Positions 1,864 through 15,975 of a stretch of DNA of 24,844 nt are shown here, in pieces (positions within the stretch are counted from its first letter, which is position 1; every line of letters starts with the position of its first letter). The stretch lies in IMG/VR virus record IMGVR_UViG_3300012351_000027, positions 1 to 24,844 of that record; one strand, 5' to 3'. Source of the stretch: a virus. The notes beneath the pieces were generated by a model. The model made no database searches and was not told the origin of the DNA. It saw only the letters and a program-made list of their open reading frames with translations. Made by a program: the position numbers and the translations under genes.

Positions 1864-1887
1864 CCCCGGCCGAAAGGTCGGGGTTTT
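1864..1887 (+). terminator. Rho-independent terminator
   Basis: CCCCGGCC, a GAAA tetraloop, then GGTCGGGG and TTTT. The eight-pair stem is GC-rich with one G-T pair. It lies between the membrane protein gene and the next late promoter word at 1901, cleanly separating two transcription units. Confidence 0.9.
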
Positions 1888-1925: not shown

Positions 1926-3863
1926 ATGTTTGGAAGAACCATAGTGGCATTAGAAGTACATAAGCTCAAGCATTTAGATCATGTAGAAGACCTCCCTATT
2001 CGCCACGGTAGAGAAGGGTTCGAACACGCCCATAAAACACTTTTGGCTACTCATGATCACCTTACCGGTAAAAAGCCAGAGAAATTCAATATCACCACTA
2101 AGTATGACGGCTCACCGTCAATTGTATTTGGTCATCACCCAACTACCGGAAAGTTCTTTGTTGGATCTAAGTCAGTATTTAACAAGAACGCCAAAATCAA
2201 TCACTCGCATGAAGATATTGAAAAAAATCATGCGAAAGCGCCGGGCCTTGTAACTAAGCTAAAGCATGCTTTTGATCATCTTAAGGATAACATCCCAAAG
2301 AAGGGTGTATATCAAGGTGACTTGATGTATTCTGGTGATGATGTCAAGAAATCTGGTAGTCATCTAAAATTTCAACCAAATACTATGGAGTATGGTGTAA
2401 ACAAAGATACACCAGAAGGTCGCCGTGTCGCAGATTCTAAGATGGGCATGGTGGTTCATACTGAGTATAAAGGTAACGGTATTGAAGATATGAAAGCGTC
2501 ATTCAATCCTGATACTTCAAAATTCAACCATAAGGGTCCTGTGAACTTCATTGACCCAAAGGTAAGCCCTCACGTCAAATATACTCCTGAACAAGAAAAA
2601 GAATTTACTTCTAATCTCTTTAAAGCACGTCAGCTCAGCACCGAAATCCATAAATCAAAGGTATATGATCTAGCTAAGGATCAAGAACCACTTCTACTAG
2701 GATATGCAAATGACTCAGTTAAGCAAGGCAAGCCTGTTTCTACTTCGGGTTATATGGCATTCATTAATAACCGATACAAAAAGGCAATGGAAGATCTTAA
2801 GTCTTCCGGTGGTAAAGAGAAGAAACAATTAGAAATTGACTCACTATTAAAGACAGTAGCTGACAACAAGAATGGCTATGATAAGCTATTCGACCTTCAT
2901 AAGACTATGGCGGCCGCCAAAAAGCCATTGGTGGACGCTCTATCGAGTCATTCACATTTGAAGACATCCATAGGTGGTAAAGAGACCAAGCCTGAGGGCT
3001 TTGTTGCAACTCATTCTGGAATTCCTTCCAAGTTAGTTGATCGCGACGAATTTTCTCGGGCGAATTTCGATTGGAATGAGAAAGCCAATCCAGAAGATAA
3101 TCCCATGGTTTTTTCGTTTGGTCGGATGAATCCACCAACAATGGGTCATGAGGTTCTGGTGAACCGCGTTCAGGACTTGGCTCGTCGGATGGGAGCTTCT
3201 CACCAAATTGTAATGTCTGGTTCTCAGGATCCAAAGAAGAATCCTCTTTCTCCGGATGAAAAGTTGGATTATGCAAAATCAGCGTTTCCTTCTACTAATA
3301 TTACAGTTGCAGGTAAAGACGATGCTACAGTCATTCATCAGCTCAAAAAGATTAATGGAAGAGGTGTTCGCCACCTCACCATGGTTGTTGGTGATGATCG
3401 AGTAGCTAGTTTCACTAAATTACTCCATGATTTGAATGGTAAAGAGTTTCATTTCAAAAAGATCAAAGTTGTATCAGCAGGTGCTAGAAATGCTGATGCT
3501 GATGATGATAGTGCTGAAGGCATGAGCGCTTCGAAGATGAGGAAAGCTGCTGCAGAAGGTGATTGGGAATCTTTCAAGAAAGGTGTTCCTTCACAAATGC
3601 CTGATGATAAAGTGCACGGAATGTATAAAGCCCTTCGTAATAAGATGGGTGTTAAAGATATTAAACCTGATGATAACGGCATGGTTATGACTGGAGTAGA
3701 AACTCGAGGTAAGCCTCTTCCTAAATCAGATGTAAAGATAGGAAAAGATACTCCTAATATTTCACTACAACGATATGCTACACGAGATAAGAAAGATTTA
3801 ACCGGTAGGGCAGCACGGATTGAGATTGCCAAGAGAAAACAACAAGGAAAGTGGACTGGATAA
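1926..3863 (+). CDS. Fusion: ligase-like nucleotidyltransferase domain + NMN-adenylyltransferase-like (cytidylyltransferase) domain
   Basis: 645 aa. The N-terminal part (~1-230) has a KYDGSP motif at K59, like the lysine-adenylating motif I of RNA/DNA ligases. It is followed by GVYQGDLM (~127-134) and KMGMVVHTEYKG (~172-183), which resemble later nucleotidyltransferase motifs. A helical middle follows. From ~394 comes a Rossmann nucleotidyltransferase domain: FSFGRMNPPTMGH at ~396-408, a GxxxPPTxGH signature with Thr for the first His, and GMSASKMR (~531-538), matching the ISSTKIR loop. Known family behaviour: such domains join NMN or similar to ATP. The joint function and substrate are unknown. 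ATG 1926 has no clear Shine-Dalgarno; GTG 1944, preceded by GGAAG, is an alternative start. It sits among late genes. Confidence 0.8.
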   Translation: MFGRTIVALEVHKLKHLDHVEDLPIRHGREGFEHAHKTLLATHDHLTGKKPEKFNITTKYDGSPSIVFGHHPTTGKFFVGSKSVFNKNAKINHSHEDIEKNHAKAPGLVTKLKHAFDHLKDNIPKKGVYQGDLMYSGDDVKKSGSHLKFQPNTMEYGVNKDTPEGRRVADSKMGMVVHTEYKGNGIEDMKASFNPDTSKFNHKGPVNFIDPKVSPHVKYTPEQEKEFTSNLFKARQLSTEIHKSKVYDLAKDQEPLLLGYANDSVKQGKPVSTSGYMAFINNRYKKAMEDLKSSGGKEKKQLEIDSLLKTVADNKNGYDKLFDLHKTMAAAKKPLVDALSSHSHLKTSIGGKETKPEGFVATHSGIPSKLVDRDEFSRANFDWNEKANPEDNPMVFSFGRMNPPTMGHEVLVNRVQDLARRMGASHQIVMSGSQDPKKNPLSPDEKLDYAKSAFPSTNITVAGKDDATVIHQLKKINGRGVRHLTMVVGDDRVASFTKLLHDLNGKEFHFKKIKVVSAGARNADADDDSAEGMSASKMRKAAAEGDWESFKKGVPSQMPDDKVHGMYKALRNKMGVKDIKPDDNGMVMTGVETRGKPLPKSDVKIGKDTPNISLQRYATRDKKDLTGRAARIEIAKRKQQGKWTG

Positions 3864-13216: not shown

Positions 13217-15199
13217 ATGTCTAACAACGCTGCATCTATGTCGCTGCTACAAGAATACGTATACCTATCAAGATATTCAAGATTTTTACACGACAAAGGG
13301 CGAAGGGAGACTTGGGAAGAAACTGTTGCACGTTATTTTGATTTTTTCACTAACCATCTTAAAGAAAATGTGAATTATAAGTTATCAAAAGACCTTCGTG
13401 AAGATTTAGAAGGGGCTGTTCTTAAGATGGACGTCATGCCTTCTATGAGATGTTTGATGACTGCTGGTCCAGCTCTTGAAAGAGAAAATATTGCAGGTTA
13501 TAATTGTTCTTACCTTTCAATCGATCATACAAAAGCCTTTGCAGAGCTTATGTATATTTTGCTTTGTGGAACTGGAGTAGGATTTTCAGTTGAGCGGCAG
13601 TATGTTAATAAGCTCCCCGAAGTATCTGAAGAACTCTATGATTCTGAGACGACTGTGGTTGTCGGCGATTCCAAATTGGGTTGGGCGAAGAGTCTTAACG
13701 AAATCATCTCGATCCTTTACACGGGTAATATTCCCAGGTGGGATATGTCTAAAGTCCGTCCTGCCGGCAGTATTCTTAAAGTGTTCGGGGGTAGAGCTTC
13801 GGGTCCTGACCCCCTTGACAGGCTCTTCAAGTTCTTGGTCCAAATTTTTAAAGAAGCTAAAGGTCGCCGCCTCACGACCTTAGAATGTCATGATATTTGC
13901 TGTATGATTGGTGAAGTCGTTGTTAGTGGTGGTGTGCGTCGCTCTGCCCTTATTTCACTTTCAAATCTTAGTGATGATCGTATGAGAAATGCTAAGACTG
14001 GACAGTGGTGGACAATTTATCCACACCGTTCTATCTCTAATAACAGTGCAGTTTATACTGACAGACGTCCTACAATGGACACATTCATGACTGAATGGAA
14101 ATCACTGTATGATTCTAAGTCAGGTGAACGTGGAATGTTCAGTCGTTGGGCTGCCTCAAATATTATTGATAATAATACAAAAGTAAGGAAAGAAGTTAAT
14201 GCTGAGTACAGGGTTCGTGATTCCGATTCTGCTTTTGGTACTAATCCGTGTTCAGAAATTATCCTCCGTGATAAAGAATTTTGTAACTTAAGTGAAGTAG
14301 TAGTTCGAGAAGATGATACAGAATTAAGTCTTCTTTATAAAGCTAAATTAGCTGCTATTCTTGGAACTTTTCAATCTACATTAACTAATTTTAAATTCCT
14401 CAGCAAGCGTTGGAGGGATAATACTGAGGATGAGCGTCTACTTGGCGTTTCTATGACAGGTATCATGGATAATGTATTAACTAATTGTTCAGATCCTGAT
14501 GCTACTGCTACAATGATTGAAAAAATTAAACTCAAAGTCATTGAAACAAATTATCAAATGGCTAAAGAGATGAAAATTCCTCAATCAGTAGCAACAACTG
14601 CTGTAAAGCCTTCAGGTACAGTTTCTACATTGGTAGATAGTGCATCAGGTATTCATGCTCGACATTCAGAATATTATCTTCGTTCAGTTCGTTCAGATAA
14701 GAAGGACCCGTTAGCTCAGTTAATGATTGATCAAGGCATTCCTTATGAGGATGATGTTATGCGACCAGCTCATAATTATGTCTTTTATTTTCCTTGCAAG
14801 AGTCCAAAAAGCTCTAAGAAACGCACCGATATCAATGCGATTGAACAGCTAAAGATTTGGAGAATTTATCAGGAGAATTATACTGAACACAAGCCATCAG
14901 TAACAGTGTCAGTGAAGGATGATGAATGGATGGCAGTAGGTGCTTATGTGTATGAACATTTTGACAAGATGTCTGGTATCAGCTTTTTACCGTTTTCAGA
15001 ACATAATTATCAACAAGCACCATTTCAAGAGTTAACTAAAGAACAATATGATATTTGGGTGGCAAAGATGCCAAAGATTGTTGATTGGTCTAAGTTGTCA
15101 ACTTATGAAAAAGAAGACAACACCACCGGCAGTCAAGAATTAGCTTGCTCCGCAGGTGCTGGTGAAGAAGGTGTTGTATCGTTAGGATGTGCTATTTAA
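13217..15199 (+). CDS. nrdJ: Adenosylcobalamin-dependent (class II) ribonucleotide reductase
   Basis: 660 aa, like the monomeric RTPR type but shorter than the ~739 aa Lactobacillus enzyme. It reduces ribonucleotides using a B12-generated thiyl radical. Seen: N-terminal redox Cys C97 (IAGYNCSY), radical Cys C345 in TNPCSEI, and partner C356 in EFCNLSE. The 345/356 spacing equals that known for the Lactobacillus enzyme (408/419). VVVSGGVRRSALISL and AVKPSGTVSTLVDSASGIHARHS are typical barrel segments. The C-terminal redox tail is odd: cysteines C644 and C658 are 13 residues apart instead of the usual CX4C. AGGA precedes the ATG. It converges on the endolysin gene; the stop codons overlap. Confidence 0.95.
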   Translation: MSNNAASMSLLQEYVYLSRYSRFLHDKGRRETWEETVARYFDFFTNHLKENVNYKLSKDLREDLEGAVLKMDVMPSMRCLMTAGPALERENIAGYNCSYLSIDHTKAFAELMYILLCGTGVGFSVERQYVNKLPEVSEELYDSETTVVVGDSKLGWAKSLNEIISILYTGNIPRWDMSKVRPAGSILKVFGGRASGPDPLDRLFKFLVQIFKEAKGRRLTTLECHDICCMIGEVVVSGGVRRSALISLSNLSDDRMRNAKTGQWWTIYPHRSISNNSAVYTDRRPTMDTFMTEWKSLYDSKSGERGMFSRWAASNIIDNNTKVRKEVNAEYRVRDSDSAFGTNPCSEIILRDKEFCNLSEVVVREDDTELSLLYKAKLAAILGTFQSTLTNFKFLSKRWRDNTEDERLLGVSMTGIMDNVLTNCSDPDATATMIEKIKLKVIETNYQMAKEMKIPQSVATTAVKPSGTVSTLVDSASGIHARHSEYYLRSVRSDKKDPLAQLMIDQGIPYEDDVMRPAHNYVFYFPCKSPKSSKKRTDINAIEQLKIWRIYQENYTEHKPSVTVSVKDDEWMAVGAYVYEHFDKMSGISFLPFSEHNYQQAPFQELTKEQYDIWVAKMPKIVDWSKLSTYEKEDNTTGSQELACSAGAGEEGVVSLGCAI

Positions 15200-15975
15200 A
15201 CCCACCTTTTCTTTAATGAATCCCATTCTTCTTCAAACCAGTTGTTAGCAACAGGAGGAAGTGTAAAAGCTGCATTTGCCATCTCAACTGGATCAGGACT
15301 TGAAACACCTGATCCAGGAACTTCAGGAGTCAAAGCAATTGCAGGTGGAACTTCTTCTTCAGCGCCCCAATCTTTTGCTAGCTGTTCGTCAGTATGATTG
15401 TATGAATTGACATCAAGACCGCTACCAAGACCAGGAATGTTGTGGGGGGTTGGACCTATACCGTCACCAGTATACTGCCAAATCCAATAATTATCCCATC
15501 CTGGTGGAAGTTTAGGTGTGTTGGAATATTGAGCAAGCCAAAGTTTATGAGCATTGAAAAATGGGTCTGGATGCTTAAGGGTTTCTTTTATAAGATTACC
15601 AGAATAAAGGACAAGTTTTCTACCAAGAAGATTTTCACCTTCAGTAAGAAATGCTCTTGCACCTTCTAGGTTCATTTGTGATCCTTGATTTGGTTCATAA
15701 TCAAGAGCCATTAAGGTATTATCATCTGGCTTTACAACGTCAAAGAAGTGATGTACCTGTCCGATTGGATCGGTACCATCTGCAAAGTGATATGCACCCC
15801 AAAGCATACCAGCATCAAGGGCTTTAGTTTTTCTATCAGCATATTCATGGTCTACCATTCTTTGGCCTTGAGAAGCTTTGTGAATAATGCCTCTTATACC
15901 AAACTTATATGCGTCTACGAAGCTAGTAGGCGTATTATGGTGAGAAAGGTCCACAACTTTTGGGTTGATGATCAT
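15196..15975 (-). CDS. Endolysin: GH25 lysozyme (muramidase)
   Basis: 259 aa, the only gene on the minus strand. The glycoside hydrolase family 25 domain fills ~1-200: VVDLSHHN (D9), LWGAYHFADG (~58-67), the catalytic LDYEPN (D92, E94), KLWLAQY and YWIWQYTGDG. It cleaves the MurNAc-GlcNAc bond of peptidoglycan. The ~55-residue tail is Pro/Glu/Ala-rich and ends in WFEEEWDSLKKRWV; no cell-wall-binding domain is recognised. There is no signal peptide, so export would need a holin. AGGAG lies six bases before the ATG, and a late promoter word lies 30 nt upstream on the same strand. Its stop overlaps the nrdJ stop. Confidence 0.93.
   Translation of the reverse strand: MIINPKVVDLSHHNTPTSFVDAYKFGIRGIIHKASQGQRMVDHEYADRKTKALDAGMLWGAYHFADGTDPIGQVHHFFDVVKPDDNTLMALDYEPNQGSQMNLEGARAFLTEGENLLGRKLVLYSGNLIKETLKHPDPFFNAHKLWLAQYSNTPKLPPGWDNYWIWQYTGDGIGPTPHNIPGLGSGLDVNSYNHTDEQLAKDWGAEEEVPPAIALTPEVPGSGVSSPDPVEMANAAFTLPPVANNWFEEEWDSLKKRWV

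Follow-up and report, generated by a model that had tools for sequence, protein, structure and literature searches.

A DUF6267 domain of predicted ligase fold fused to an NMNAT/PPAT-like nucleotidyltransferase domain in a probable late gene of a viral genome fragment

DUF6267 (PF19782) is a Pfam family of no assigned function, which corresponds to phrog_455 and to T4-GC71 of the T4-like cyanophages; most marine T4-like phages carry it. The gene usually follows that of the gp41 helicase, as in syn9, S-SM1 and HTVC008M, and in S-SM1 and P-HM1 the gene order is DUF6267 (T4-GC71) and then T4-GC190. T4-GC190 immediately follows DUF6267 in the S-SM1 record, and the T4-GC190 product, a putative citidylyltransferase, is reported from S-SM1 virions (Sullivan et al. 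2010, PMC3037559). Here we describe a protein of 645 amino acids (aa) in which a DUF6267 domain is fused to an NMNAT/PPAT-like domain. It is encoded by a single open reading frame (ORF) of the IMG/VR virus record IMGVR_UViG_3300012351_000027, positions 1 to 24,844; this whole stretch of 24,844 nt is called the window. We interpret the protein, with a probability of roughly 0.5, as a late two-domain nucleotidyltransferase, in which a hidden polynucleotide ligase would be coupled to a dinucleotide-making C-terminal domain.

The ORF starts with an ATG codon and, as the initial annotation had it from the sequence alone, its product carries KYDGSP (aa 59–64), GDLM (131–134), GMVVHTEYK (174–182), GRMNPPTMGH (399–408) and SASKMR (534–539). 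Residues 15–383 match DUF6267 (E 6.5e-94; 315.8 bits against a curated cut-off of 27), and residues 383–581 match the PHROG cytidyltransferase family phrog_3041 (E 1.2e-55); a sub-threshold Pfam match to the cytidylyltransferase-like family covers residues 398–505. With the full protein as the tblastn query, matches occur in 531 of 50,697 phage records, and locus L001 is 100% identical to the window protein across 621 residues. The ORF is, therefore, not a chance one, given the two family matches and the tblastn matches. A search of PDB sequences with the window protein gave no match. That a ligase-like domain is joined to an NMNAT/PPAT-like domain is, in our judgement, very probable.

For the N-terminal half, we aligned the window protein with 81 relatives obtained by 5-mer dereplication of 133 full-length matches (alignment A2; 82 rows), all 82 of which match DUF6267. 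The AlphaFold model of DUF6267 based on this alignment has a mean predicted local distance difference test (pLDDT) score of 94.2 and a predicted template-modelling (pTM) score of 0.91. When VIA-align re-aligned the best PDB chains of a Foldseek search (988 aligned), all 50 matches listed were ligases, with Z between 9.3 and 6.0. The best of those listed is the Naegleria gruberi RNA ligase (Z 9.3; root-mean-square deviation (rmsd) 3.6; 182 aligned), followed by trypanosome REL1 (TbREL1; 8.2), T4 Rnl2 (7.9) and T4 Rnl1 (7.7) and, lower in the list, by the tRNA ligase Trl1, archaeal RNA ligases and human DNA ligase 1. Between motifs III and IV, the model contains a helical insert; the region that holds it (215–343) is 123–142 residues long in 11 of 16 diverse members of the family and 73–88 residues long in five cyanophage members. 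An NAD+-dependent DNA ligase is ruled out, the N-terminal half matching DUF6267 alone in Pfam and the corresponding model, PF01653, matching in none of 14 records.

The positions that are conserved in DUF6267 are those expected of a ligase (Table 1). K59, D61, G62, K82, E357 and G358 are invariant in the 82 rows of A2, and the same six residues, along with H178, are invariant across the second set of 16 diverse members (26–46% identical to the window protein), which includes syn9, S-SM1, S-SCSM1, S-CREM2, ACG-2014f and P-HM1. Position 132 is D in 81 rows of A2 and E in one, and it is D or E in the diverse members. K369 is kept in all 79 rows of A2 with a residue in that column (three of the 82 have a gap) and in all 15 diverse rows that reach that position; in A2, fused rows were truncated to 390 residues, and at least one of them (L141) lost motif V as a result. 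In the model, the positions of K59, D132, E357 and K369 fit those of the ligase motifs, so that the predicted N-terminal domain agrees in fold and sequence landmarks with the ligase/capping superfamily, and the ligase-like character first proposed for this half is borne out by the predicted fold and motif conservation. The proposal that K59 is the nucleophile agrees with its invariance in both sets and with the ligase-like fold, and we consider active adenylation by this lysine a probable, model-based prediction. The assignment of motif IV to GMVVHTEYK was mistaken: that segment forms a strand before the insert, and the invariant EG and K sit some 180 residues further downstream, at 357 and 369. 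Motif IV is PEGFV (356–360) and the motif V lysine is K369, both past the helical insert.

The C-terminal half clearly belongs, by its predicted structure, to the NMNAT/PPAT type of fold with an intact active-site signature. In the full-length AlphaFold model (pLDDT 88.1; pTM 0.70), residues 391–577 were aligned by VIA-align with the PPAT 3pxu at Z 14.9 (rmsd 2.8; 153 aligned) and with archaeal NMNAT at Z up to 13.6, and Foldseek ranked NadD first for the full-length model (E 1.8e-4). Comparing predicted structures of the two domains with RNA ligases and NadM, as had been suggested, thus yielded a nucleotidyltransferase-like model for the N-terminal domain and an NMNAT/PPAT-like one for the C-terminal domain. 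Conservation in this half was read from alignment A3, the window protein with 33 rows chosen by hand from 74 dereplicated out of 104; a further alignment, A4, has 66 hand-picked rows. The Rossmann-like fold, the (H/T)xGH motif and the C-terminal S-(S/T)xxR place the domain in the HIGH superfamily. N402, P403, H408, D491 and R539 are kept in all 34 rows of A3 and R400 in 31, while 27 rows have T and seven have H at position 405; five rows are without the SxxK residues ahead of the conserved arginine, with H and R still there. NCBIfam NMNAT models match seven of the 34 relatives weakly (TIGR01527, best 7.4e-5; NF002243, best 2.9e-6), none of the NCBIfam models passes the 0.01 threshold for the window domain, and the profile of the C-terminal domain gives weak matches to a UPF0348 protein and PAPS synthetases in the PDB. 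Neither by fold nor by family scores can NMNAT be told apart from PPAT and other activities, PPAT folds scoring equally high.

Six loci hold an additional copy of the NMNAT-like domain, a paralogue situated upstream (L011, 2226–3017; L013, 4726–5505; L026, 40–888; L027, 5956–6804; L054, 4245–5138; L139, 1096–1968). Many C-domain genes have long C-terminal extensions of no assigned function, up to a total of 888 aa (e.g., L006, 2936–5368; L040, 4323–6578; L135, 4022–6685), and three of the 34 members of A3 match DUF6321.

The tblastn search found the DUF6267 part in 468 of the phage records and the C-terminal part in 530. The 468 are mostly phages of Synechococcus and Prochlorococcus, which count among the most abundant viruses in the oceans. 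Cyanophages, HTVC008M and Stenotrophomonas phage DLP_6 encode the two halves separately. Among the loci found with DUF6267 as the query, nine of 76 are fused, and the C-domain gene lies on the same strand within 3 kb in 52 of the 53 with 3 kb of downstream sequence (within 200 nt in 34); with the fusion as the query, five of 59 are fused and the partner is found within 3 kb in 33 of 35 (within 200 nt in 18). More than 300 residues of DUF6267 are matched in 135 of the 140 loci, 88 of which have 3 kb downstream; the partner is on the same strand within 3 kb in 85 of these 88 and missing from that distance in L017, L033 and L078. Since the locus counts take in near-identical copies, the loci are not independent events. 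Foldseek of a viral library retrieved relatives including a 591-aa S-PM2 protein, named for a cytidyltransferase-like domain, which aligns over 392 columns with the DUF6267 model and is, therefore, probably a fusion too. On a tree of the 82 rows, the label “fused” or “split” needs three changes, at least two of them by starred branches, and fusion or splitting must, therefore, have occurred more than once; the window protein and L004 are joined there as long branches, a join that may be false. A weaker link was observed in metagenome-assembled genomes (13 genome_contigs loci, which we provisionally read as phage contigs), where the partner is found in four of the nine loci with 3 kb downstream. 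In T4-like phages, the two genes form a conserved module that has undergone fusion (or splitting) on more than one occasion.

The main rival explanation takes DUF6267 for a genuine polynucleotide ligase, acting on RNA or nicks, and the NMNAT-like protein for an enzyme of small-molecule metabolism (NAD, CoA precursors or nucleoside-diphosphate sugars) with no relation to it beyond a common late operon and a reading frame joined by chance. It draws on the 33 of 85 loci in which the partner starts at least 200 nt away, on the extra C-domain paralogues in the same neighbourhoods and on the separation of the pair in S-SCSM1 and S-CREM2 described below; furthermore, HIGH-superfamily enzymes of cyanophages have been proposed to make such sugars (PMC7824862). 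In our judgement, fusion in several lineages and same-strand proximity in 85 of 88 loci exceed the usual drift of operons, and we regard this explanation as unlikely, if worth serious attention. The functional coupling of the two halves is putative, the odds for and against it being about level.

Other ligases and NAD salvage were sought by profile in 13 records with DUF6267, several of which are contig fragments, so that absences there mean little. The RNA ligase models PF09511 and PF09414 match none of the 13 and both match the T4 control. Neither these two nor the DNA ligase models PF01068 and PF01653 match in HTVC008M, syn9, S-SCSM1, S-CREM2 and S-SM1, which are deposited as complete and all have DUF6267. 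Synechococcus is also outside the ten commonest organism names in the T4 Rnl1 and Rnl2 tblastn lists, a weak and one-sided test.

A number of observations weigh against an active ligase coupled to its neighbour. Only 13 chains reach Z ≥ 8, below which VIA-align warns of common arrangements; Foldseek of the DUF6267 model against the PDB gives no significant match (the best ligase, 1xdn, has E 0.12) and puts an unrelated CorA channel protein in the top row, above 1xdn. As these E-values are not significant, the fold claim stands on VIA-align and the motifs. PF09511 matches just two of the 82 DUF6267 members (best E 0.015), and hhalign comparisons with ligase families are not significant (P 0.08–0.52). 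Position 132 carries D, where ligases usually have E in motif III. There is no ligase C-terminal domain past motif V: one helix (373–387) is followed by the NMNAT-like domain, and split DUF6267 members end after the motif V region, likewise devoid of that domain. The ATP-dependent DNA ligase model PF01068 matches four of the 13 records, and simple replacement of that enzyme is, therefore, not general. A long distance separates the two genes in S-SCSM1 and S-CREM2, so that physical coupling is not obligatory. Finally, NadV (PF04095) was not found in 10 of the 13 records, some of these 10 being contig fragments of 51–101 kb, and is present in three; the window, a 24.8-kb record and itself a fragment, was left out of this test.

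NadV was also not found in the five complete isolates named above. A survey reports NadV in every NadM phage (PMC9503650), and its absence weighs against an ordinary NMNAT role; with no NadV in five complete marine genomes, classic NAD salvage is unlikely. The initial annotation had described the C-terminal half as NMNAT-like, which holds for the fold and the active-site motifs; as a specific activity, NMNAT is one candidate among several, given the missing NadV and scores that do not set it apart from PPAT.

Alignments of profiles show how remote the family is from known ligases. Against T4 Rnl1 relatives, hhalign pairs K59 with K99 and, as its second choice, pairs E357 with E227, at non-significant P of 0.08–0.13; among 150 column shuffles, six reached the score, none placed K59 on K99 and five placed some invariant column there. 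Against T4 Rnl2 relatives, the result is non-significant, yet the alignment lands on motif IV. The DUF6267 profile gives chance-like helical matches alone in the PDB (amyloid-like protein 1, E 0.014). This distance from all known ligases, the large helical insert and the lack of a C-terminal ligase domain would suit a DUF6267 that keeps the ligase fold in a non-catalytic, structural or nucleotide-sensing role. The residues at catalytic positions are, however, exactly those that are invariant across very diverse members, which is hardly expected of a dead enzyme; we consider such a role very improbable.

The gene is likely to be expressed late, judging from the promoter words. Seven of the eight plus-strand copies of the T4-type late promoter word ATAAATA in the window lie 25–46 nt upstream of ORFs judged to be real (binomial P 6e-8, tested on a hand-chosen list of 38 plus-strand ORF starts), although the copy number as such is unremarkable (11 on both strands, against 9.4 expected). 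Among the related loci, the word occurs at most 60 nt upstream of 47 of 135 DUF6267 ORFs; the five bins farther upstream give 0–6 of about 130 each. The gene had been described as preceded by a terminator and a late promoter word of its own, both of which are there (Table 1); the hairpin is absent from our mechanical terminator scan, which demands five T. Other plus-strand copies (603, 4537, 6561, 13171, 19506 and 24119) are located 28–46 nt 5′ of ORFs, and the words can serve as a map of the late units of this virus.

In relatives, the C-terminal half has been seen in virions beyond S-SM1: an NMNAT is reported for S-SCSM1 (PMC9602691) and a cytidylyltransferase, with three unique peptides, for S-CREM2 (PMC10665884), with a warning of possible co-purification by the authors of both reports. 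The table in the latter lists 52 virion proteins, from which the S-CREM2 DUF6267 protein (gp87) is absent. These reports, therefore, support packaging of the C-half gene product but lend none to packaging of the N half. The suggestion that the fusion protein acts late or is packaged in the virion is in line with the late word and with the virion reports for C-half orthologues; for the ligase half, the S-CREM2 table gives packaging no support.

Where DUF6267 is parted from its NMNAT-like partner, in S-CREM2 and S-SCSM1, it is found near tail-fibre genes, an arrangement reminiscent of T4 gp63 with its two functions in RNA ligation and tail-fibre attachment: S-CREM2 gp87 (L230, 2391–3275) is two genes past the long tail fibre gene, and S-SCSM1 gp115 (L179, 7911–8795) about 6 kb past the short tail fibre gene.

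The ligase-like domain might, then, act on a protein or virion part, as a late assembly enzyme like T4 gp63, which is RNA ligase 1 and a catalyst of tail-fibre attachment (T4 rnlA is annotated with both roles). Late promoters and the S-CREM2 location are compatible with this. The usual site after the gp41 helicase gene is not in a tail cluster, and gp87 is missing from the list of S-CREM2 virion proteins, even if a catalyst could do its work without remaining in the particle; we deem an assembly enzyme decidedly improbable.

Table 1. The fusion gene, its predicted domains and motifs, and its 5′ flank, in window positions
Feature	Position	Strand	Basis
Terminator-like hairpin, 8-bp GC-rich stem, CCCCGGCC-GAAA-GGTCGGGG then TTTT, ending the upstream transcript	~1864..1887	+	read in sequence
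T4-type late promoter word ATAAATA, 25 nt 5′ of the start codon	1901..1907	+	word scan
645-aa fusion protein: DUF6267 ligase-like domain + NMNAT/PPAT-like nucleotidyltransferase	1926..3863	+	ORF, Pfam/PHROG matches, tblastn, structure model
DUF6267 (PF19782) domain, aa 15–383, predicted covalent-nucleotidyltransferase (ligase) fold	1968..3074	+	Pfam; AlphaFold; VIA-align
Motif I KYDGSP, predicted adenylated lysine K59	2100..2117	+	conservation; end of strand 54–59
Motif III-like GDLM, acidic residue D132	2316..2327	+	conservation; inside strand 128–136
GMVVHTEYK, strand 173–182 between motifs III and IV (IIIa position), H178	2445..2471	+	model; H178 in 16/16
Helical insert, aa 221–339, between motifs III and IV; shorter in several cyanophage members	2586..2942	+	model
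Motif IV PEGFVA (PEGFV aa 356–360), acidic residue E357	2991..3008	+	conservation; E357 precedes strand 358–363
Motif V SKLVDR, lysine K369	3027..3044	+	conservation; strand 366–370
NMNAT/PPAT-like HIGH-superfamily nucleotidyltransferase domain, aa 391–577	3096..3656	+	VIA-align, Foldseek
GRMNPPTMGH, (H/T)xGH active-site motif, H408	3120..3149	+	conservation in 34 rows
SASKMR, counterpart of ISSTxxR motif, R539	3525..3542	+	conservation in 34 rows
C-terminal tail, mostly low confidence (588–626 pLDDT < 50)	3657..3860	+	full-length model

As regards mechanism, our preferred reading of a ligase coupled to a dinucleotide-making domain would work as follows. K59 would take AMP from ATP or NAD+ and pass it to a 5′-phosphate end, most probably of RNA or of nicked nucleic acid, which would then be sealed; a polynucleotide substrate is a prediction that we moderately favour. 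DUF6267 would thus be the hidden polynucleotide ligase of those marine T4-like phages that have no recognisable one. The C-terminal domain would join AMP (or another nucleoside monophosphate) to a phosphorylated small molecule, and may supply or regenerate an NAD-like dinucleotide, to be used by the ligase domain or consumed by partners. Both domains would act late, with the C-domain protein carried into virions in some relatives.

A tighter coupling can be envisaged. T4 RNA ligase accepts App-X donors, and the NMNAT-like domain could combine ATP with a phosphorylated small molecule to give A(5′)pp(5′)X, for the ligase domain to transfer AMP or pX to the ends of RNA (or DNA) late in infection. 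Such tagging would mark or protect nucleic acids, perhaps those delivered by the virion. We found no paper on such App-X donor chemistry in the literature searched and think end-tagging improbable; if true, it would be a new nucleic-acid modification from a core gene pair of marine T4-like phages.

If DUF6267 is a covalent nucleotidyltransferase, these phages gain a candidate ligase where profiles recognise none, the NMNAT-like partner reported in virions gains a reason to be there, and a “hypothetical” near-core gene becomes assayable by means of one lysine mutant.

Directly 3′ of the fusion gene is an ORF for an FkbM-type methyltransferase. This neighbour had been pointed out; the adjacency is real, but a relative is present in just three of 140 related loci, so that adjacency is not a conserved feature and the methyltransferase is ruled out as a component of the system. 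Elsewhere in the window, a plus-strand ORF (636–1583) encodes a 316-aa product with two long, near-identical repeats (FIDELNTSTLKSY...GNKLQTQASTRSQNVTLAKEKIAKKE, twice); it has a late word ATAAATA 33 nt upstream, and its product has no PHROG match. The window is otherwise plus-strand apart from 15196–15975 (−), the sole clearly gene-like long ORF on the minus strand, which we take by eye to resemble a lysozyme of the glycoside-hydrolase-25 type.

In comparison with described systems, the N-terminal half is a plain member of DUF6267/phrog_455/T4-GC71, and the order of the two halves is that of T4-GC71 and T4-GC190 in S-SM1 and P-HM1; unlike the split genes of these cyanophages, the window copy is fused to its downstream partner. 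Similarly, the T4-GC190 “cytidyltransferase” and the NMNAT-like proteins reported from the virions of S-SM1, S-SCSM1 and S-CREM2 are separate proteins there, and their counterpart is fused in the window. With T4 Rnl1 (gp63) and Rnl2, the N. gruberi RNA ligase and trypanosome REL1, DUF6267 is predicted to share the nucleotidyltransferase fold (Z 9.3–7.7 among the matches listed), and it has the K-DG / D(E) / EG / K motif residues in the same order as known RNA ligases. It differs from these in having no significant sequence similarity, in the D at motif III, in the insert at 221–339 and, in the window protein, in the NMNAT-like domain that takes the place of the ligase C-terminal domain. The modelled C-terminal half shares with archaeal NMNAT (NadM), NadD and bacterial PPAT the fold (Z 13.2–14.9), GR-NP-(T/H)xGH and S-(S/T)KMR, and stands apart from NadM and NadD in that the window domain has no NCBIfam match at 0.01 and most genomes tested have no NadV; no Nudix or kinase domain was seen in the fusion protein. 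Within the literature searched, there is no report of DUF6267 or of a phage RNA ligase–NMNAT fusion, and the ligase identity of DUF6267 appears to be unreported there. The fusion is a very divergent branch of one known superfamily joined to another known superfamily, and it is the branch that is new.

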